Positions 1-62,881 of a DNA stretch of 64,000 nucleotides are shown in pieces. The stretch comes from Rossellomorea aquimaris TF-12. Its GTDB lineage: Bacteria; Bacillota; Bacilli; Bacillales; Bacillaceae_B. The stretch is from assembly GCF_001648555.1 (NCBI RefSeq), contig NZ_LQXM01000028.1, forward strand, positions 248,001 to 312,000, read 5' to 3'. Position 1 is the first letter of the stretch; every line of letters starts with the position of its first letter. The position numbers were made by a program, and so were the translations under genes. Under the pieces are notes generated by a model. It was not told where the DNA came from. It made no database searches and was given only the letters and a program-made list of their open reading frames with translations.

Positions 1-751
<751 letters not shown>

Positions 752-4792: not shown

Positions 4793-5345
4793 TAGGTCGC
4801 TGATTAAATGGGAGATTGCGCCGATAAATGAATGAAATTTGTCGATATAATTGAAATTTCGCTAATAACCAATAGACTCCACATACCAGATGATCCTTAT
4901 TAAGAGGCGGGACATGTCACCACTTGTCGATAAATCCGTAGCTCGCAAATATATTCAAAATTCCGCTTGATATATTCCAGATATCGCAAATAAAATTGAC
5001 ATTTCACTCGATATAATTGAAATTTCGCAAATAACTTGTAGCCAGATGATCAATGTTAAGATCCGGACGGGTCATTGCTTGTCGATAAGTCGATAAATCC
5101 TTAGCTCGCTGATAAAAGTGAAGATTTCGCCGATTAAATGGAAGTTTCCGCTGATAAATGAATGATTATCGCCGATAACAAATAAAATGCACATACTAGG
5201 TGTTCATTATATAAAGGCGAAACGTGTCATCACTTGTCGATAAATCCGTAGCTCGCAAATATATTCAAAATTCCGCTTGATATATTCCAGATTTCGCAAA
5301 TAAAATTGACATTTCACTCGATATATTCGAAATATCGCAAATAAA
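4793..5345. repeat. Gene-free array of about 21-bp units with three long direct repeats
   Basis: No gene is visible between the clpP terminator and the crh terminator. The stretch consists of short units about 19-22 bp long built on words such as TCGCAAATA, TTCCGCTTGATATATT and GCCGATAAATG. Superimposed are three longer direct copies of roughly 120-170 bp, ending near 5038, 5180 and 5345. The first and third are almost identical over more than 60 bases, from the CACTTGTCGATAAATCC word onward. A related array occurs at 35800-35905. The function is unknown. Confidence 0.85.
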
Positions 5346-18604: not shown

Positions 18605-18624
18605 CTATTTCCACCAACCTTTTG

Positions 18625-18728
18625 GAGGGACGGACCTTGCTTATCCATAACTAGTCCAAATCCCTACTCTTTATTATCCATGTGTTGTCTTGCAACGGAT
18701 CGAACCACACTTGCAAGGTCCGTCCCTC
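18625..18728. repeat. REPIN (two inverted REP arms) between hisG and hisD
   Basis: Inverted arms GAGGGACGGACCTTGC (18625-18640) and GCAAGGTCCGTCCCTC (18713-18728) flank about 70 bp of unrelated sequence. The right arm overlaps the hisG stop: the TGA of hisG is the first codon of TGAGGGACGGACC. It accounts for almost all of the unusually long hisG-hisD gap. Confidence 0.9.
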
Positions 18729-20740: not shown

Positions 20741-20826
20741 AAATCAAACGTAAAAATGAAAGTGACATGCAAATTTGGAAAGTCACATGTAAATCATAAA
20801 AATCATATGCAAAATCATTAAATCGA
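20741..20826. repeat. About 20-bp periodic array (ACATGCAAA type)
   Basis: Three successive units: AAAGTGACATGCAAATTTGG, AAAGTCACATGTAAATCATA, AAAATCATATGCAAAATCAT. The core word is ATGNAAA. It lies between the his promoter and the yvoF terminator and has the same design as the arrays at 4793, 29071, 35800, 50600 and 56325. Confidence 0.7.
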
Positions 20827-29018: not shown

Positions 29019-29070
29019 GGTTCGGGTTCGGGTTCGGGTTCGGGTTCGGGTTCGGGTTCGGGTTCGGGTT
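29019..29070. repeat. Hexamer tandem repeat (GGTTCG), about 8.7 copies
   Basis: Fifty-two bases of uninterrupted GGTTCG. It lies in the gene-free stretch between yvlA and uvrA (28918-29360) and immediately precedes the periodic array. It is prone to slippage and encodes nothing credible. Confidence 0.95.
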
Positions 29071-29240
29071 GATAATAAAATAAAGTTGTTGAAAGTAAAT
29101 TCAGTTAGTTGGTTATTTAATGCTAAAGTTAATAATAAAATTGATGTAGTTTTATAAGTTGAAAATAAAATGCTCAATGTTGAAAATAAAGTCTGCGTTC
29201 TCGATAATAAATCCTTGATTGTCGATAATAAAAGCTTCCG
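29071..29240. repeat. About 21-bp periodic array (GATAATAAA type)
   Basis: Units such as GTTGATAATAAAATAAA, AATGTTGAAAATAAAGTCTGC, GTTCTCGATAATAAATCCTTG and ATTGTCGATAATAAAAGC recur about every 19-24 bp; the centre is degenerate. Same design as the other arrays in the window. Confidence 0.65.
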
Positions 29241-35799: not shown

Positions 35800-35905
35800 G
35801 GTAGCTCGCACATACATTGGTAATTTCGCTTGATATAATTTAAATTTCGCAAATATATTTAGGATTTCGCTTGATATATTAATTATTTCGCAAATATATC
35901 TTCAA
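35800..35905. repeat. About 20-bp periodic array (TTTCGC type)
   Basis: Five units: TAGCTCGCACATACATTGGTAA, TTTCGCTTGATATAATTTAAA, TTTCGCAAATATATTTAGGA, TTTCGCTTGATATATTAATTA, TTTCGCAAATATATC. They alternate CTTGATATA and AAATATA after TTTCGC. It is clearly related to 4925-5345, more than 30 kb away. Confidence 0.88.
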
Positions 35906-36657
35906 TTCCTTATTTCACCTAACAAAATATTATTTAATGCATCATGATAACGTGTAGGAATTTGATGGGTGGCTCCTGGAATCATATATACTTTTTTAGG
36001 AAAGCAATTGTTGTAGCATTTCAGCTGGTTATTAATCCAATCAGATTTTTCACCATATACGAGGAGAATGGGGATCGAAAGCTTTTCAACCTCCTCTACC
36101 CCTCTATAATACAAGGATTGCTTGTAATAGTGATACCATATTTCAGGGTTGGTTTTTTTCATATGATGAAGAAGTTCTTCACGATCTGCTTTGTTGGTCG
36201 TGTGGACTTTTGAAATGATGGCTGCCAATCTGTCAGGATGACGTCTTACCATTTTCATACCCATTAAATGCATCACCTTTAATCGAGGATCTGTGACTTC
36301 TGAATAACCTCCAATTAAAATCAAGGTTGATACCCTGTTTTGATAGAGACTTGCAAATTTTTGTGCAATGACTCCACCTGCGGAATAACCAATTAATACA
36401 CATGTGGATAACTCCAAATAATCGATTATCTCTTTCATTTCCTCTACATAGGTATCCACACTTATAAATCTCTCTTCGGATATGGAGTCTCCATGCCCTG
36501 ATAAATCAGGCAGTATCAGACGAAAATGTTTGGCAAGAACATGCTGTTTCTTAAAAGTGACTCGTCCCATTCCTGGGGGATGTATAAATAAAAGAGGGAT
36601 TCCTTCCCCCATATCATCAAACACTAATGTTCTCGATCTGAATAAAAGACTTTTCAT
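35902..36657 (-). CDS. Alpha/beta hydrolase
   Basis: A 251-residue hydrolase with LLFIHPPGMGRVTF (oxyanion loop, 22-35), DLSGHGDS (50-57), the nucleophile elbow LIGYSAGGVIAQ (Ser about 92), acid in VYGEKSDWI (about 206) and catalytic His in IPGATHQIPT (about 233). It resembles the MhpC/BioH-like group; substrate unknown. ATG after AAAGGAG. Downstream of serA with a hairpin between, so probably independently transcribed. Confidence 0.82.
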   Translation of the reverse strand: MKSLLFRSRTLVFDDMGEGIPLLFIHPPGMGRVTFKKQHVLAKHFRLILPDLSGHGDSISEERFISVDTYVEEMKEIIDYLELSTCVLIGYSAGGVIAQKFASLYQNRVSTLILIGGYSEVTDPRLKVMHLMGMKMVRRHPDRLAAIISKVHTTNKADREELLHHMKKTNPEIWYHYYKQSLYYRGVEEVEKLSIPILLVYGEKSDWINNQLKCYNNCFPKKVYMIPGATHQIPTRYHDALNNILLGEIRN

Positions 36658-41695: not shown

Positions 41696-41727
41696 CAAAA
41701 CATTCGATCACAAGTATCATCCACTCC

Positions 41728-41848
41728 CAAGACGCTTTCGAGGTTAGCTGACGGATTCGGGCTATGGAAGTAGCCCTACCTAATGAAAGGATTCACCCCA
41801 ATGAAACAATTGGGTCCCCCGATTCAAACATGAATTAAGCGTATCTAA
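41728..41848 (-). promoter_or_regulatory. c-di-AMP riboswitch (ydaO/yuaA type)
   Basis: The minus strand carries the conserved ydaO core: ACGCTTAATTC, GAATCGGGGGACCCAATT, TTGGGGTGAATC, TAGGGCTAC, and CCGTCAGCTAACCTCG. ACGCTT and AAGCGT close the P1 stem. It precedes a terminator and ktrA, so ligand binding should stop transcription. The same riboswitch class controls ktrAB in B. subtilis. Confidence 0.95.
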
Positions 41849-41869
41849 TCTATTCGTTTGATGATAGAT

Positions 41870-50599: not shown

Positions 50600-50720
50600 G
50601 TTTGGTTTTTTCACACATTAATTGTGTTTTTCGCACATTCATCCGATGATTTCACACATTAATTGTGTTTTTCGCACATTCTTATGTGTTTTTCGCACAT
50701 TCTCACATGTATTTCGCTCA
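50600..50720. repeat. About 21-bp periodic array (TTTCGCACATT type)
   Basis: Six units in the metY-metX gap: TTTTTCACACATTAATTGTGT, TTTTCGCACATTCATCCGATGA, TTTCACACATTAATTGTGT, TTTTCGCACATTCTTATGTGT, TTTTCGCACATTCTCACATGTA, TTTCGCTCATTTAC. Inside an operon, hence transcribed. Confidence 0.85.
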
Positions 50721-50752
50721 TTTACAAAATCAGATCGTGACAGTACCTTACA

Positions 50753-52230: not shown

Positions 52231-52347
52231 CTCTTATCTTTCAGGCATAAAGCTGCCTGCAGGAATTAGCACCTTTTCATGTACAAAATGCACATGAAGG
52301 TTGCCGGGTTTCATCGGGCCTAGTCCCTCCACCTCTCTGGATAAGAG
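52231..52347 (-). promoter_or_regulatory. SAM-I riboswitch (S-box)
   Basis: On the minus strand CTCTTATC pairs with GATAAGAG (P1); the core contains AGAGAGGTGGAGGGACTAGG, CCCGATGAAACCCGGCAACC, GGTGCTAATTCCTGC and TGAAAGATAAGAG. All S-box conserved blocks are present. Binding of S-adenosylmethionine should favour the terminator and reduce metYX. Confidence 0.97.
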
Positions 52348-54297: not shown

Positions 54298-54396
54298 TTG
54301 AAAACTCCTCCTTTTATTTTTTAGGTTCTCTTACTTAAACGATGACATACTTACTTTATACCTTGTGGTGTATAGGAGTAAACATTGAAATCGGAT

Positions 54397-54412
54397 AGAG
54401 GTCCGTCCCTCA
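54397..54412. repeat. Single REP arm providing a stop codon
   Basis: GAGGTCCGTCCCTCA on the plus strand; on the minus strand TGAGGGACGGACCTC, whose first three bases are the TGA stop of the thioredoxin-like gene. Confidence 0.85.
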
Positions 54413-56324: not shown

Positions 56325-56440
56325 GAAAAATTGGTGGTTTTCACGCATAATTTCGTGTGTGTTACGTATAAACCCCCTTACTTTACGGATAAACTCGGAT
56401 TTCTAACGAATAACTTCTCCTAACCTACGCATAACCCATA
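56325..56440. repeat. About 21-bp periodic array (ACGNATAA type)
   Basis: Units TTTTCACGCATAATTTCGTGT, TTACGTATAAACCCCCTTACT, TTACGGATAAACTCGGATTTC, TAACGAATAACTTCTCCTAAC, CTACGCATAACCC. The period is 21 bp with the core ACGNATAA. It fills the gap between the methyltransferase and the amylopullulanase terminator. Confidence 0.85.
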
Positions 56441-56477: not shown

Positions 56478-59400
56478 TCATTGCTTATTAACGCTCATCT
56501 TTATTTTTTCTAAATTATGAGCTACTTTCTTCTCTGCTTTATCCATTTCCTTGTCTTTTTTTGCGTTCTTTTTCTCAAGTTCTTTTTGAAGTTTCTCCAG
56601 GTCCCGCTGTATTCCATCTGTGAATTCATTTACCTGCTTTTGAGTAGCGGATTTCATTTCATCAGCTACAACACTTGCTAGTAGTAGCTCCTTCACTTCC
56701 TTTGGAGTATAGTCTTCACTTAATACAAGCTCGACCATTAGTTCCGAAGCTTTTTCAGCTGTAGTGTCATCAAGTAAGAATTCTTCAATTACAACGGTGA
56801 CGGCTGATTTAGGCGTAACGGTTACTGAGTTGGATTTCACTTCATTTCCTGCTTGATCTTTCAGGACAAGTTGATAGGTATACTCTGTTCCATTTTCAAC
56901 ATTTTCATCAACATATCCGACAGCATCCGCGTTTTCTATCGTATGATAGCTTTCACCGTTACGAAGAAGCGTTAAGCTATGAGCATCCTTTTTATCTAGA
57001 TCTTCAAAGCTCCAGTTTAGTGAAACCTTACCTTCTTCTTGAACCGGCTGTTTCAGCTCGATAGATGTTGCTGGTGGAGTTTTATCCACTCTTATGACGT
57101 TTAACACATAATCCTTTGTATTTTTACCGATGGCACCACCATCGCTCTTAAAAATGTCTGTTTTATTTTGTTCTGATGGCTCAATATGAATGTTTAGTTT
57201 ATTTTCACCTTGTTTCAGTTGAACTTCATGAGAAAAGCTCATGTCGTCTGCGATGGTTACTGTCTCGCCATTAATCGTTAATACTCCTTCTTTAATGGCG
57301 TTACCTGTAACAGTTACAGAATCTTTTTCTGTTTCAAGTCCTTCTTTTGGAGACGTGATGACGACTGGCCTGTCAATCCAGCGAAGAATTTTATCCTCCA
57401 CCACCATCCTGTTGTTTCCTTGGTTTTTGACGACTACTTTGAGGTCCGTCCCTGGAGCTCCGTAGCCGTATAGACTGATGTCATCGTCTGTTTTGTCGTA
57501 TGGGGTGTGGTCGGATAGACCTTCCTGGTCCCATGAGTTCGATTTGACGTATTTGTAGGTGATTTCGGTTCCTTCTTGGACTTCTGTTGTGTATTCCCAG
57601 TCAGCTGTAACGGCACCGTTACGGGACATTTCCCACGCACCCGTGTTCCACCCATTCACGCTGCCCGGCATGCTGATGGTTGTATTAAGTGGCGTATAAT
57701 CAGGTGCGTGTACCTTGAAGGTTACCTCTACCATAACAATTTCAGGTGTAATCTTCACTTCATTAGATGTAACAGTATTCCCAGCTTGATCAAACAGCTT
57801 GACTTGGTACCCATAGGTTTTACCATTTGAGACCTCGTAATCTCGATACGTTGTTTTGGAGAGATCATAGATTTTTTTAATGATGTTCCCATTGCGAACA
57901 ATGGCCATCATATAAGCATCTTCTGCTACATTTTCAATATTCCAGCTTAGATTCACCTGACCGGATTCTTTCGTCGGCTGCTCAAGGGTTACTCCATCGG
58001 CTGGGGCAGTCACATCATCGCTTTGTATAAATTCTACAGAGTTCGTATTATCTGTATAGATCCAGCTTTGACCCAGGTCACTAGAGAAAGCCATCCGATA
58101 TTCATAAACACCCACTTCAAAAGGTGTAAAAGAAGCTTTGTACACATTGTTATTGCCTTCTTGACCTGTATAAACCGCTTTTGTATCTGTCCAGTGTTCT
58201 TCAGTAGACTTCTTCATTTGAAGCTTTGTAAGGATTCCTTCTGCTTGTCCAATTTCAGTTGCTCCAGCAATATATAGCTGTGCTGCAATTTCATATGTTT
58301 TCGTTAAATCCAGAGTCGCATCAGCTAAGTCCGATAAGTTGCCAGCCCATGCTGATGTTAAATCATAATGAGGGACAAACCCTTTACTTTCTGCTTTTTT
58401 AGACAGGTTTCCGGATGGGTCCTTCGCTACTATCGCAAAATAATATTCTTTTCCATTCGTTAGGTTTTCAGCTGTAAAATGCGTATCGGTTGTTGTACCA
58501 ATCTCTTCGTAAAACGCACCTTGCAGGTTTGATTTGTAGACAACATACTCTACATCCGTAGTTTGTGAAGCACTCCATTGCAAGGAAACAGCTCCTTCAC
58601 TTGCTTCACCCGTAATGTTGGTCACTCCTCCAGGAAGCGCCGGCTTGTCATCAGCGATAAGCATACGACCACTCATTCCAGGAATCTCTACTTGTATTTG
58701 ACCAGACGCGGTTGTAACTCGGTAAGAATCGTCTAATTGATCAACAAATGCTGCACCATTTGGTAAGATATCTTTCACATCAATGGTGATGGTTTTCGCT
58801 GTTTCACCACGGTTAATGGCAACGATGGCACCTTGTTCATCATTGGTACGAGCATAGGCCATGACATCGCCATCTGCGTATACATGATGTAAGTCACCGT
58901 ATGCTAATAGATTGCTATACTTAGTACGAACATCCCCAACCTGTTGGTAATGCTGAACTAATTCTTGATCCTCTCCCCCCCATGGATAGGTTCTACGATC
59001 ATCTGGATCCTTAGAGCCCGTAACTCCTGCTTCATCTCCGTAGTAGATTGTAGGAGCACCAGGATAGCCCATTTGGAAGATGGCAGCCAGCTTCAAACGG
59101 TCTTTACCCAGTTCATAATTATATCCTTTATCGTATTCTGCACGCTCACTAGAGTCCGTCCCTCCTCCTAGAAGGAATACCGCTCTTGGGGTATCATGTG
59201 AGCCCATCAGGTTCATAAGGGCATGGAATGCTTCTGAAGGGTAATCTTCATGGACAGCCTTTAAGCTTGCTTCCTGCTGTGCTGCATTTCCGTTTTTCAA
59301 GAAGGTTTCCACCGCTCCACGGAAGCGATAGTTCATGACAGAATCATATTGATCTCCTAAAAAATATTTAGAAGCGTCGTCCCAAATTTCTCCGAGAATC

Positions 59401-61469
59401 AGAGGTTCTTCTCCTTCTTTCAATGTCGCCCCATCTCCAGAAATGGATGCTGCCTTCAACTCAGCTCGGAACTCTCTCCAAAACTCTGTATCTACTTCAT
59501 TCGCAACATCCAAACGCCAGCCTGATCCACCGTTTGTAATCCATGATTTTGCCACAGAGTCCTCATCATACATAATATAATTGGCAAAGCTCGTTTGATT
59601 TAATTCACTGTCGTAAGGTACTTCCTCACCAGGAATCGATTTGATTTCTGGTAAACTTGTGAAGCCCCACCACGCTTGATACTTGTAAATCTCTTGTCCC
59701 GAATCAGCTTCCTTCACTTTTTCATTGCTAATATTGAACCAGAGGTGAAAGCCATACGGGCTCAGGGTTTGTCCTTCTTTGGTGAAATCAGACTCTGCCT
59801 TTTCACGTGCCTCTTCCTCGGATAATCCATCGTTATTCATATAGTCATAAACTTTCGACCAATATTCATAGGCACCAACTGTGTCATATTTATTGTATCG
59901 GTCAAAATAAATGGAGTCGTCTCCAACATGATTAAATACTCCATCTAAAATAAGATGCATATCACGACTGGCCAGTTCATCGGTAAATGCCTTAAATTCT
60001 TCAGGGGATCCGAACATCGGGTCAACTGCTTTAAAGTCTGTCGCATCGTACTTATGGTTCGATGCAGCTTTTGCCACTGGATTTAAATAAAGAGTATTTA
60101 CACCTAAAGATTGGATATAATCAAGCTTTTCTTGAATCCCTTTAATATCCCCCCCAAAGAAATCGTTACTCCAAATCCCATCTCCATCGTAACCGGCGTC
60201 GTTTTGTAATCGTGGGTTATCAGGCAGCTCCTCCCAATCCTGATGCTCAATAGGTTCAGGGCCACGAGCTTTTGTTTTTGCCTCATCATTCTCACTGTTT
60301 CCGTTGTAGAAGCGGTCAGGGAAAATTTGATACACAACAGACTCCTTCATCCAATCCGGAGTTTTAAAGGCAGGGTCGTAAACGGTTAATTGAAATAACC
60401 CCCCATTACTATCAGCAGCTTTCCCTTCTCCTCCTTGCTCAGTATCTTCACCGTATTCAGCAACAGTATCTCCGTCACCTGCAATAAATTTGTATCCGTA
60501 TACACCCTTTTCTTCAGGAGTAAAGGAAGCTTCCCAGAAATCTGAATCTCCTATGGTTGCTTTTTTTACAAGGGGAACAACTTGAGACGTACCAGATTGA
60601 TAGTTTTTCATTTCAACGTTGGCACGTGTTAAATCATTCTTTTTGGAAGCAAGACGTAATCTTACTTCCTCCCCGGTTTTTATTGCGCCAAAAGGCTGTC
60701 GATACGTGTTATCCCATGTATTATGATAAAGCTTGTCCTTTTCAATAGCATTATCAGCTCCATTTAGTGAGTAATTGGTTGAAACCTCTTTCGTTTCGTT
60801 ATTAAAAAAGAAGGTAATCTCTGAGTCCTCTAAAACATTTAATATGGCGTTGGATCCAGGATATTCTTCTCCCCACTGACTCCCAAGAACCACTTTATAC
60901 TCGTAGCTTCCCTTTGGAACGATCGTGGTAAAGGTATAAATATTATCAAAATCATGATCGTAGAGTTTTGCTGTTGAGGTATCAGGAGACCATTCATCAC
61001 CAGCATTAATAGCAGGCTGAATATTCCCTACAAGTCGCGGACGTTTTTCTTCAGACAGTGGTGTATAGTACCGGGAATCTGTGACTCCGTGTGTACCATC
61101 GTGGTAGTAAAAGGTGATTTCTGTTTCTTCAGTGAGCTCTAATTTAATGTTCTCACCGCCTGGAGCACCATAAGCTCCGTAGTTTTCGTCCCAGCTTCCG
61201 TTAATGGCAATTTTGTACTCATAGTTACCAGCTGGTATTGTAGCTGTATAGGAATACAATTGATTACCCACGTGATTCATTTGTGTTGCAGTGGCGGCAG
61301 GATCCCAGTCCTTGTCATGCCCCAGTTCACTCTGCATGCTTCCTACCAACACAACGGATCGTTCGGTGCTTTCTTCTGCTTTTGCAAATGGAGTGAACGG
61401 TTGTGCAAACGATTGCAAAAATAATAAGAAAACAACAAGTACAGATAATGGCTGTAACTTCCTCCTCAT
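56478..61469 (-). CDS. Secreted multidomain amylopullulanase-type GH13 enzyme
   Basis: A 1,663-residue exoenzyme that should hydrolyse starch or pullulan. Signal peptide 1-32. Two N-terminal starch-binding-like modules (about 38-135 and 143-235; each with YSYTATIPAGNYEYK or YTFTTIVPKGSYEYK), then a CBM34-like module (about 245-370). The GH13 barrel follows: DGVFNHVG (about 511), GWRLDVANE with the nucleophile Asp (about 651), ILGEIW with the acid Glu (about 692), and MGSHDTPR (about 758). After it come fibronectin-type III domains, a CBM20-like module and a charged coiled-coil tail. No LPXTG or SLH anchor. Upstream cre indicates CcpA repression. Confidence 0.92.
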   Translation of the reverse strand: MRRKLQPLSVLVVFLLFLQSFAQPFTPFAKAEESTERSVVLVGSMQSELGHDKDWDPAATATQMNHVGNQLYSYTATIPAGNYEYKIAINGSWDENYGAYGAPGGENIKLELTEETEITFYYHDGTHGVTDSRYYTPLSEEKRPRLVGNIQPAINAGDEWSPDTSTAKLYDHDFDNIYTFTTIVPKGSYEYKVVLGSQWGEEYPGSNAILNVLEDSEITFFFNNETKEVSTNYSLNGADNAIEKDKLYHNTWDNTYRQPFGAIKTGEEVRLRLASKKNDLTRANVEMKNYQSGTSQVVPLVKKATIGDSDFWEASFTPEEKGVYGYKFIAGDGDTVAEYGEDTEQGGEGKAADSNGGLFQLTVYDPAFKTPDWMKESVVYQIFPDRFYNGNSENDEAKTKARGPEPIEHQDWEELPDNPRLQNDAGYDGDGIWSNDFFGGDIKGIQEKLDYIQSLGVNTLYLNPVAKAASNHKYDATDFKAVDPMFGSPEEFKAFTDELASRDMHLILDGVFNHVGDDSIYFDRYNKYDTVGAYEYWSKVYDYMNNDGLSEEEAREKAESDFTKEGQTLSPYGFHLWFNISNEKVKEADSGQEIYKYQAWWGFTSLPEIKSIPGEEVPYDSELNQTSFANYIMYDEDSVAKSWITNGGSGWRLDVANEVDTEFWREFRAELKAASISGDGATLKEGEEPLILGEIWDDASKYFLGDQYDSVMNYRFRGAVETFLKNGNAAQQEASLKAVHEDYPSEAFHALMNLMGSHDTPRAVFLLGGGTDSSERAEYDKGYNYELGKDRLKLAAIFQMGYPGAPTIYYGDEAGVTGSKDPDDRRTYPWGGEDQELVQHYQQVGDVRTKYSNLLAYGDLHHVYADGDVMAYARTNDEQGAIVAINRGETAKTITIDVKDILPNGAAFVDQLDDSYRVTTASGQIQVEIPGMSGRMLIADDKPALPGGVTNITGEASEGAVSLQWSASQTTDVEYVVYKSNLQGAFYEEIGTTTDTHFTAENLTNGKEYYFAIVAKDPSGNLSKKAESKGFVPHYDLTSAWAGNLSDLADATLDLTKTYEIAAQLYIAGATEIGQAEGILTKLQMKKSTEEHWTDTKAVYTGQEGNNNVYKASFTPFEVGVYEYRMAFSSDLGQSWIYTDNTNSVEFIQSDDVTAPADGVTLEQPTKESGQVNLSWNIENVAEDAYMMAIVRNGNIIKKIYDLSKTTYRDYEVSNGKTYGYQVKLFDQAGNTVTSNEVKITPEIVMVEVTFKVHAPDYTPLNTTISMPGSVNGWNTGAWEMSRNGAVTADWEYTTEVQEGTEITYKYVKSNSWDQEGLSDHTPYDKTDDDISLYGYGAPGTDLKVVVKNQGNNRMVVEDKILRWIDRPVVITSPKEGLETEKDSVTVTGNAIKEGVLTINGETVTIADDMSFSHEVQLKQGENKLNIHIEPSEQNKTDIFKSDGGAIGKNTKDYVLNVIRVDKTPPATSIELKQPVQEEGKVSLNWSFEDLDKKDAHSLTLLRNGESYHTIENADAVGYVDENVENGTEYTYQLVLKDQAGNEVKSNSVTVTPKSAVTVVIEEFLLDDTTAEKASELMVELVLSEDYTPKEVKELLLASVVADEMKSATQKQVNEFTDGIQRDLEKLQKELEKKNAKKDKEMDKAEKKVAHNLEKIKMSVNKQ
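57441..57453 (-). repeat. REP core word inside a coding region
   Basis: GAGGTCCGTCCCT inside the amylopullulanase gene, coding in frame for PGTDL. It is a 13-base match to the REP arms elsewhere, longer than expected by chance in 64 kb. Confidence 0.5.
61404..61417. promoter_or_regulatory. Internal cre-like site
   Basis: TGCAAACGATTGCA, a perfect palindrome fitting TGNAANCGNWNNCA, in the signal-peptide coding region of the amylopullulanase. Could act as a CcpA roadblock. Confidence 0.6.
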
Positions 61470-61734: not shown

Positions 61735-61826
61735 TCTGTTGAAAAAGGCAAACTTTTCGAAAGGGAAGGACGCAAAGCTCCCGGATCTAAGGTGAACTCA
61801 ACTAGGATGGCCGAGCTACCGACATT
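61735..61826 (+). promoter_or_regulatory. c-di-GMP-I riboswitch (GEMM), plus strand
   Basis: Diagnostic GEMM-I blocks in order: GGCAAAC, TTTTCGAAAGGGAAG (GAAA tetraloop hairpin), GGACGCAAAGC, the receptor helix with CCCGGATCTAAGG, then TAGGATGGCCGAGCTACCG. It ends 15 bases before the start of the 100-aa gene. No intrinsic terminator follows, so control may be at translation. Confidence 0.93.
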
Positions 61827-62547: not shown

Positions 62548-62639
62548 ACATTTCACCCTAACCCTCATGGAAAATAAATATAACCCACCAAAAAGAATGG
62601 CCGGTTATAAGTGAACAAGTTCATTTATCCATACTCTTT

Positions 62640-62720
62640 TTGGTAACCCGGCTATCAAGGTTGTCATAACCGTAGACCCGCGGCTTTGCGTCCCAGCCTT
62701 TCGACTAGTTTGCTATTATC
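62640..62720 (-). promoter_or_regulatory. c-di-GMP-I riboswitch (GEMM), minus strand
   Basis: On the minus strand: AGCAAACTAGTCGAAAGGCT, GGGACGCAAAGCC, GCGGGTCTACGG, then GATAGCCGGGTTACC. All GEMM-I landmarks are present. Downstream, ACCAAAAAGA of the aptamer end can pair with TCTTTTTGGT (62587-62596), a possible expression platform. Confidence 0.95.
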
Positions 62721-62881
62721 AAAGGAATATTTATTTTTTACAGTACTCGTACAATACTACCAATTTTTTCAGAAGATTGAAAGGAAAAATCTAATGTTTA
62801 CAAAAATGAAATGTTGTATAAAACCTTTAGAATTCGTGAATAATGGAAATTATCATATTTTTGAAAGGGGATATTCCCTCT

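Follow-up and report, generated by a model that had tools for sequence, protein, structure and literature searches.

Intergenic arrays of short direct repeats with a 20-21-bp period and lineage-specific core words in Rossellomorea aquimaris TF-12 and other Bacillaceae

Arrays of short direct repeats with a period of 20-21 bp are a real feature of the gaps between genes in Rossellomorea aquimaris TF-12, and they extend far beyond the window, here the whole 64-kb stretch of DNA that was analysed. We tentatively read them as DNA-level multi-site elements that a protein recognizes, that serve at boundaries between transcription units, that are copied from gap to gap and that some insertion sequences (IS) exploit, an explanation to which, taken as a whole, we assign somewhat less than an even chance. 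The TF-12 genome comprises 4.04 Mb in 30 contigs, in an assembly listed with 9.56% contamination. An earlier note had described units repeating every ~19-22 bp at six gene-free loci of the window, and direct reading of the sequence locates such units at all six, the first of which contains four arrays:

Array A1, 4793..4868, + strand: units TCGCTGATT / GCGCCGATA / TGTCGATA / TCGCTAATA.
Array A2, 4924..5035, + strand: TTGTCGATAAATCCGTAGC, then TCGCAAATA / CCGCTTGATA units in alternation; ~110-bp block.
Array A3, 5102..5177, + strand: TCGCTGATA / TCGCCGATT / CCGCTGATA / TCGCCGATA; spacing 21,21,21 bp (run at 5106-5177).
Array A4, 5234..5345, + strand: second copy of the A2 block.
Array B, 20741..20826, + strand: three CAT(G/A)T(G)(C/T)AAA-like units in ~20 bp steps, read by eye.
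Array C, 29158..29232, + strand: GAAAATAAA, GAAAATAAA, GATAATAAA, GATAATAAA; spacing 21,21,21 bp.
Array D, 35805..35901, + strand: TTTCGCTTGATATA / TTTCGCAAATATA alternating; steps 21,20,21.
Array E, 50607..50722, + strand: six TTC(A/G)C(A/T)CATT units; steps 20,21,20,21,21.
Array F, 56343..56434, + strand: five ACGNATAA units; steps 21,21,21,21.

Four of the six loci (A, D, E and F) pass a strict array test, which requires at least four units, an 8-mer core with at most one mismatch and steps of 19-22 bp; the units of array C were read by hand and are absent from the rows of the automated scan, and array B is the weakest of the six (gap z = 5.2). Locus A (4793-5345) consists of two copies, 83% identical, of a ~246-bp block (A1+A2 and A3+A4), and its ~110-bp blocks occur, at 75-81% identity, in at least ten listed places of the genome, locus D among them; 41-bp higher-order repeats are also seen in the window. 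Array D ends within ~8 bp of the stop codon of the minus-strand gene at 35902-36657, and a terminator-like hairpin separates array F from the minus-strand gene at 56478-61469.

The periodicity exceeds chance. In 304 kb of the TF-12 genome, made up of the window and twelve stretches of 20 kb, there are 80 pairs of intergenic 6-mers at lag 20 against 11.5 after shuffling, 44 against 10.4 at lag 21, 55 against 9.6 at lag 40 and 85 against 9.8 at lag 41, with more peaks at 60-63 and 80/82. Eighty WhiA-neighbourhood regions of other Bacillaceae, representing a single chromosomal neighbourhood across relatives, yield 278 pairs against 52 at lag 20 and 326 against 51 at lag 21, together with a separate peak at 52 bp and a smaller one at 10-11. 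The earlier note had proposed a genome-wide search for this period and had staked its idea on an excess over shuffled sequence; the excess at 20-21 bp is present in these samples, which cover part of the genome of TF-12 and of its relatives. A loose detector demanding at least three units likewise reports 52 arrays at lags 19-22 in 704 kb of TF-12, where seven windows at other lags give 9-23 and five shuffled versions 11-20. These 704 kb of the 4.04 Mb are the TF-12 sample for the main counts and were partly chosen (L139, L142 and L143 include known hits), and five further TF-12 stretches, fetched for hits, enter only the strict-array and step statistics. The same detector finds 85 arrays in 544 kb of coding DNA, a per-kb rate which, compared as a rate alone and without a shuffle of its own, is about that of shuffled gaps. 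With the strict detector, 26 gaps of TF-12, G430 and G392 pass, versus none of 699 after one shuffle each, the stretches of the last two genomes having been selected around pattern matches. In the G392 sample (L164-L172), the lag window 36-39 holds 20 arrays versus 17 at 19-22, which suggests a further period.

The spacing rule is narrow. Across 58 strict arrays, which include orthologs (L019, L200 and the G033/G034/G019 set) and count one locus twice (L013 = L197), a tally restricted to steps of 19-22 gives 20 bp in 120/270 and 21 bp in 144/270, so that 264/270 are one or the other, and unrestricted nearest-neighbour distances between units are 20 or 21 in 277/302. The proposal that all cores lie on one face of the helix fails in its strict form: exact 20-bp steps persist for up to 12 in a row in some arrays, and such runs would rotate off one face at 10.5 bp per turn. 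A strict alternation of 20 and 21 that would keep the phase is not supported either (55 alternations vs 51.1 +/- 3.4 in shuffled order).

Each unit comprises a core of ~10 bp and a spacer of ~10-11 bp that is nearly free, and pairwise identity within arrays falls from mostly above 0.9 in the anchor, whose positions are biased by selection, to ~0.5 in the spacer. The core word had been thought specific to each locus; it is instead a property of the genome and of array subfamilies, for a genome has one or a few words, each at several loci. Most of the words read by eye in TF-12 (TTTCGCNNATA, GGCAGATAAAT, ACGGATAAA, GTTGATAATAAA, CGGCTCGATT and GGCATGTAAAT) occur at more than one locus, the word of array F (ACGNATAA) being found again at L140 and L153 and that of array C (GATAATAAA) at L146 and L148; a few of the 26 TF-12 arrays read for words (L087:8833, L147 and L150) look by eye like chance or another element. 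Other genomes have other words, namely TTTATTGGCGA in G430, where it is common to five species of the genus designated g6, TTTATGAGCC in G392, TTTATCAGCG in G511 and TTTATTAGCC in G498, and G005 has two, of which each listed array uses one. Solitary copies are few: the exact word occurs in arrays, alone between genes and alone in coding DNA, respectively, 22/0/1, 24/0/2 and 22/0/2 times in three samples. A fourth, for the TF-12 word TTTCGCAAATA, gives 2/8/4, an outlier that we ascribe to arrays alternating two unit types and hence missing the array criterion.

Since the cores often read TTTATNNGC, DnaA boxes were considered, and were rejected because the words appear to drift between lineages. 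As regards array ends, TTGTCG words stand at one end of some TF-12 arrays, and TTGTCGN lies within 45 bp outside arrays five times (0.8 expected), in 5/26 TF-12 arrays. The related TGTCGAA, which we take to be the Spo0A box, is about threefold enriched in TF-12 gaps generally (26 vs 9.1), and in view of this general enrichment a Spo0A-box leader is no more than a possibility.

In four of five samples, arrays of at least four units lie preferentially between convergent genes. Pooling TF-12, G430, G392 and the R. vietnamensis group, they occupy 22/122 convergent, 18/514 co-directional and 2/166 divergent gaps, whereas the WhiA set presents no convergent bias (3/71, 16/510 and 6/91, respectively); gap types derive from our own gene caller, based on longest open reading frames with a Shine-Dalgarno filter for short ones, and carry its error. 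As a control, three other lag windows together mark one gap in TF-12, two in G430 and one each in G392, the WhiA set and the R. vietnamensis group. The neighbours are ordinary genes, including, on our own reading, clpP, crh and uvrA, and also genes for YfbR-like proteins, alpha/beta hydrolases, a Cys/Met PLP enzyme, a pullulanase-like enzyme, ribosomal protein S9 (rpsI), Tyr-tRNA synthetase (tyrS) and phosphoglucose isomerase; rpsI and tyrS are among the genes that have an array downstream. A simple detector places a terminator-like hairpin beside at least one end in 20/35 arrays and none in 15/35. A dependence on replication polarity is not supported, array strands being mixed, by eye, among those listed for ~0.35 Mb of the one-contig genome G498.

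The anatomy of the arrays is clearest in genus g6, where a leader, AACTGGAAA-N13-TTTCCAGTT, is followed directly by CGCCAATAAA units. The leader has 16 hits in 15/20 loci examined, with 90 units in which core positions 1, 2, 3 and 5 (C, G, C, A) are invariant and 72/74 steps are 20 or 21, in a scan that favours the consensus by requiring TTCGC at the first unit and at most four mismatches later. The elements, copies of which lie at dozens of loci, have left ends fixed at the leader, which contains an inverted repeat, and right ends that shift by whole units, stopping at unit boundaries beyond which the sequences are unrelated and share nothing; in the L269 element units flank the leader on both sides. 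At one G564 locus the array is missing, with 18 bp in place of the 287 bp of G430, which also held a second repeat type, a difference that either insertion or loss would explain. One g6 array (L160), which lies past a trmB-like gene and its terminator-like hairpin, was recovered in 5/5 species searched with flanks 75-90% identical. Its 31 units have 7/310 core mismatches and a spacing of 20 or 21 in 26/26 steps, and spacer identity is 0.41 against 0.34 expected from composition; the nearest pair, G430-G538, exhibits little difference between core and spacer change.

These features bear on what is, in our view, the strongest alternative, that of parasitic dispersed repeats (MITE- or BOX-like) whose leader and cores are mobilized in trans, the core being kept for mobilization, and which persist where least harmful, in tolerant gaps downstream of genes. 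The fixed leader with its inverted repeat, the dozens of copies per g6 genome, the array-free G564 locus and the patchy presence within a genus all fit such an origin, as does the convergent bias, which is likewise expected of neutral parasitic repeats and therefore counts against the protein and boundary explanation. The BOX elements of Streptococcus pneumoniae, mobile repeats built of end modules and variable tandem inner units, are described in PMC3049150 as over-represented between convergent genes, and the arrays resemble them as modular dispersed elements with variable unit number and a convergent excess. On the other hand, boxA, boxB and boxC have a predicted RNA secondary structure and no two-turn design of core and spacer, and their boxA-boxB(n)-boxC layout, compared by description rather than by alignment, differs from that of g6, with a leader at one end only. 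As regards MITE features, the inverted repeat lies within the leader, the right ends vary and one array-free locus was aligned. An array retained in all five species with intact cores and nearly randomized spacers is unlike a decaying parasite, the right ends have no sequence in common and no trans-acting gene was found; we consequently regard the parasitic reading as rather unlikely, if the most serious competitor.

Gyrase-wrapping sites, in which phased composition would bend the DNA and draw gyrase downstream of operons, as in BIME-2 of E. coli, are a second alternative. G+C content is indeed phased at 20-21 bp in the arrays (autocorrelation 0.31-0.37), 31/35 arrays measured span 70-140 bp and some follow rpsI and tyrS; in E. 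coli, gyrase sites are phased in G+C at 10 bp and concentrate behind operons (PMC6379681), and their motif extends over 130 bp (PMC12393610). The likeness covers phased G+C and position behind transcribed operons. The gyrase pattern, however, is a 10-bp phasing over an extended motif with no conserved 10-bp word, whereas the half-period is weak here (0.04-0.08 at lags 10-11), the spacers are almost free and the exact conservation of a 10-bp word exceeds what bending needs, so that this alternative appears improbable.

Orthologous arrays reveal which part of the unit is retained. For the six-unit array between clpP and crh in G034, G033 and G019, core versus spacer changes amount to 1/60 vs 11/54, 4/60 vs 17/54 and 3/60 vs 18/54. 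In a second gap (ortholog gap A), two comparisons give 1/30 vs 7/23 and 5/58 vs 27/55, and one misaligned pair gives little contrast (13/52 vs 22/55); in a third (ortholog gap B) core and spacer differ only slightly (2/50 vs 3/44, 5/50 vs 7/44 and 9/60 vs 9/54). Six of these nine comparisons, picked by pair label, pool to 26/302 in cores against 67/274 in spacers. Core variants specific to units 3 and 5 are kept in three species at clpP-crh, which argues against homogenization and for purifying selection, and as judged from these alignments the cores and their spacing would be under purifying selection, rather than homogenized, at most loci compared. Of the local amplification and gene conversion that had been suggested for the arrays, the former agrees with the gain and loss of whole units (in L224 exactly one 21-bp unit is missing); the latter is not seen in the clpP-crh ortholog set, where it could be judged. 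Whole-unit gains and losses, the duplication at locus A and the 41-bp higher-order repeats could also be products of functionless replication slippage or local tandem duplication. Slippage, however, copies spacer and core alike, and it is the core that is constrained at most loci compared, with the same 20/21 rule governing unrelated words in several genera, all of which renders a purely slippage-based origin quite improbable.

Transposons provide a further view of the arrays. G635 harbors ten copies of a ~1.4-kb IS encoding a Mutator/IS256-family transposase (PF00872, 5.7e-101), the ends of which came to light at five contig starts chosen for their array hits and were then searched for genome-wide. 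All ten (10/10) lie inside arrays with matching 8-bp duplications, two of them with an identical octamer and an ambiguous pairing. At least one more core stands beyond the duplication in 19/20 flanks (none in the L280 flank), and in 9/10 copies the duplication follows directly on the core letters CGC (5) or CGCN (4), one copy being offset. Related insertions were found elsewhere: a single G430 copy with a five-unit array on one side, two of the G659 copies, whose duplications (ATATATTT and AATATAAT) have the same core phase as in G635, one G392 copy whose duplication, CATAAATG, falls within AGCTCATAAATG, and, from G671, a more distant relative whose duplication, GTTTTCGA, falls in GGAAAATAA arrays. 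Another copy in G392 and one in G662 are next to an array, outside the core. The elements located in arrays are L271-L292 (G635), L272/L283 (G430), L303 (G392), L313/L329 (G659) and L330 (G671), and target duplications were read for all listed insertions except the G430 copy. Among 34 IS256-like loci checked (two more were skipped), an array lies within 700 bp in 10, of which L316 and L331 are doubtful, and each of the 24 loci with no array either is a fragment or has no more than 54% identity to the query; none of the shuffled flanks passed the array test, and strict arrays make up 0.4% of the sampled G430 DNA and 2.8% of its gaps.

This transposase has no match in 6/9 genomes searched, array-rich ones included (TF-12, G538, G511 and G498). 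The idea that IS256 elements make the arrays was accordingly rejected, and these elements appear to exploit arrays rather than to create them. Hosts might conversely keep arrays as decoy landing pads that divert IS256-type elements from genes, as the insertions in G635, G430, G659, G392 and G671, most of them at a fixed place in the core, would allow; yet arrays persist in the genomes where no related transposase was found and selection for decoys would be weak, making such a function very improbable. The insertions offer a natural, base-resolution readout of word recognition, and may by analogy represent a case of safe-site targeting comparable to that of REP-targeting transposons. REP are palindromes of 20-40 bp (PMC3733652) and attract insertion sequences from five families, among them the IS256-family ISRm5 (5/7; PMC1525189). 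Like REP/BIME, the arrays are numerous short intergenic repeats of high copy number targeted by insertion sequences; they differ in being direct, unstructured repeats with a 20/21-bp ruler and lineage-specific words rather than palindromic hairpins. Finally, a role at the RNA level, as structures or binding sites within 3' UTRs (the transcribed structures that the earlier note had allowed for), was rejected as extremely improbable in spite of the frequent location of arrays downstream of genes, given that 17 arrays show no folding signal on either strand (z-scores between -1.94 and +1.9), that array orientation is, by eye, mixed relative to co-directional neighbour genes and that a spacing rule of two helical turns makes no evident sense for single-stranded RNA.

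A constrained word at a two-turn distance, free spacers, the absence of an RNA signal and the scarcity of solitary sites point to clustered protein recognition, so that protein-binding arrays, one of the possibilities raised beforehand, are a plausible reading. Under the explanation favoured here, a DNA-binding protein would read clustered ~10-bp cores when neighbours lie two helical turns (20 or 21 bp) apart, and arrays would probably serve as roadblocks or boundary platforms that separate transcription units, for instance to limit read-through or to take up supercoiling. New arrays would arise when the leader and first units are copied into another gap, and would then grow and shrink by whole units; words would drift between lineages as recognizer and site change together, and some IS256-family transposons would use the same recognition to reach harmless insertion sites. 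We infer that a host protein binds and does so cooperatively, in which direction copying runs and, from position only, the function at boundaries. Several words per genome count against this reading, since one sequence-specific protein would not read them all, and the transposase alone might supply the recognition. A broader proposal, in which the arrays are genome-wide boundary marks of the Bacillaceae, read through lineage-specific words by a family of fast-diverging proteins that gauge two helical turns from core to core, placed by copying into the gaps between transcription units and parasitized by IS256-type elements reading the same code, is possible but doubtful. With core and spacing kept at most loci while the rest drifts, the arrays look functional, outside genes and promoters, and their lineage-specific words suggest a co-evolving recognizer.

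In architecture the closest known system is that of plasmid iterons, and in position and behaviour REP/BIME and BOX. Iterons are direct repeats about two helical turns apart with a conserved core and a lineage-specific word, present as one array per replicon adjoining the origin. The arrays share with them direct repeats of 20-22 bp and a conserved core, and differ in occupying many chromosomal gaps per genome rather than a single origin; no rep gene was found among 18 array-flanking proteins searched. CRISPR repeats measure ~23-47 bp and alternate with unique spacers, as opposed to the ~10-bp core and 10-11-bp spacers seen here. The TAACTGA direct repeats of Beggiatoaceae and cyanobacteria differ in consisting of one heptamer, particularly upstream of start codons, with no word change described in the part of the source available. 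The array design spans several Bacillaceae genera, yet neither Rfam nor the literature searched (titles and abstract openings, subscription papers being mostly outside reach) contains a named family or published description of it. In agreement with the earlier note, which knew of no named element of this kind, plasmid, phage and Rfam searches returned no known mobile element matching the arrays. In particular, a blastn search with the array-A sequence through 72,556 records of plasmids and 50,697 of phages gives no match, and a plasmid or phage origin of this sequence was rejected on these grounds. The Rfam search of the window gives five matches at gathering score, none at an array; the riboswitches of the window are c-di-AMP (41717-41851), SAM (52231-52347) and two c-di-GMP-I (61737-61823 and 62639-62724), the latter two on opposite strands.

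The TTTATNNGC-type word belongs to the sampled Bacillales order, within which alone other words were surveyed. A three-unit pattern matched two of 398 genomes of the phylum and the control pattern gave one match in another genome, both genomes with the array pattern belonging to one order of which seven genomes, TF-12 included, were sampled. Of 219 genomes from this order, 143 matched a two-unit pattern, which detects only TTTATNNGC-type words and was judged per genome by eye; in many of them the 1-3 matches are at chance level. Several genomes have 20-140 matches against 0-6 for the reversed control, among them G511 (81+59), G440 (59+62) and G538 (49+64); the reversed control reaches 8-15 in G463, G528, G574 and G603, possibly through other words. 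Arrays are patchy even at close range, being recognizable in 6/35 Rossellomorea clpP regions (each at most 20 kb), in a listing where 8/18 rows are another dispersed element. That element, TTTCCGCTCCAGGTGCTCGCTTTCCGCGGGG...GAGCCTCCTCGGGCT..., seen by eye in gaps of Rossellomorea and Neobacillus, is found at L173:4047, L174:8930, L181:10632, L182:9150, L185:8599, L186:10615, L187:7712 and L189:10630, and also in L006, L015 and L022.

Three further repeats were observed. A perfect GGTTCG hexanucleotide repeat (x 8.7) occupies window positions 29019-29070, adjoining array C, and a dispersed short word, (GA)GGTCCGTCCCTC / GAGGGACGGACCTC, was seen by eye in gaps of the TF-12 genome (window 18605-18726 and 54298-54409; L096 3792-4083 and 8223-8584; L090 574-1072). 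A second family of intergenic arrays has a period of 51-53 bp, or about five helical turns, with species-specific sequences and, where read (L016 and L021), inverted repeats inside the unit. Its members lie at L016:9385-10089, L040:9240-10520, L057:9233-10070, L155:642-1172, L158:1022-2066, L160:2960-3549 and L226:17595-18590; orthologs counted, they occupy six gaps in G430, nine in the WhiA set, nine in the R. vietnamensis group and none in TF-12 or G392, and at L157 one copy shares a single gap with a 21-bp array.
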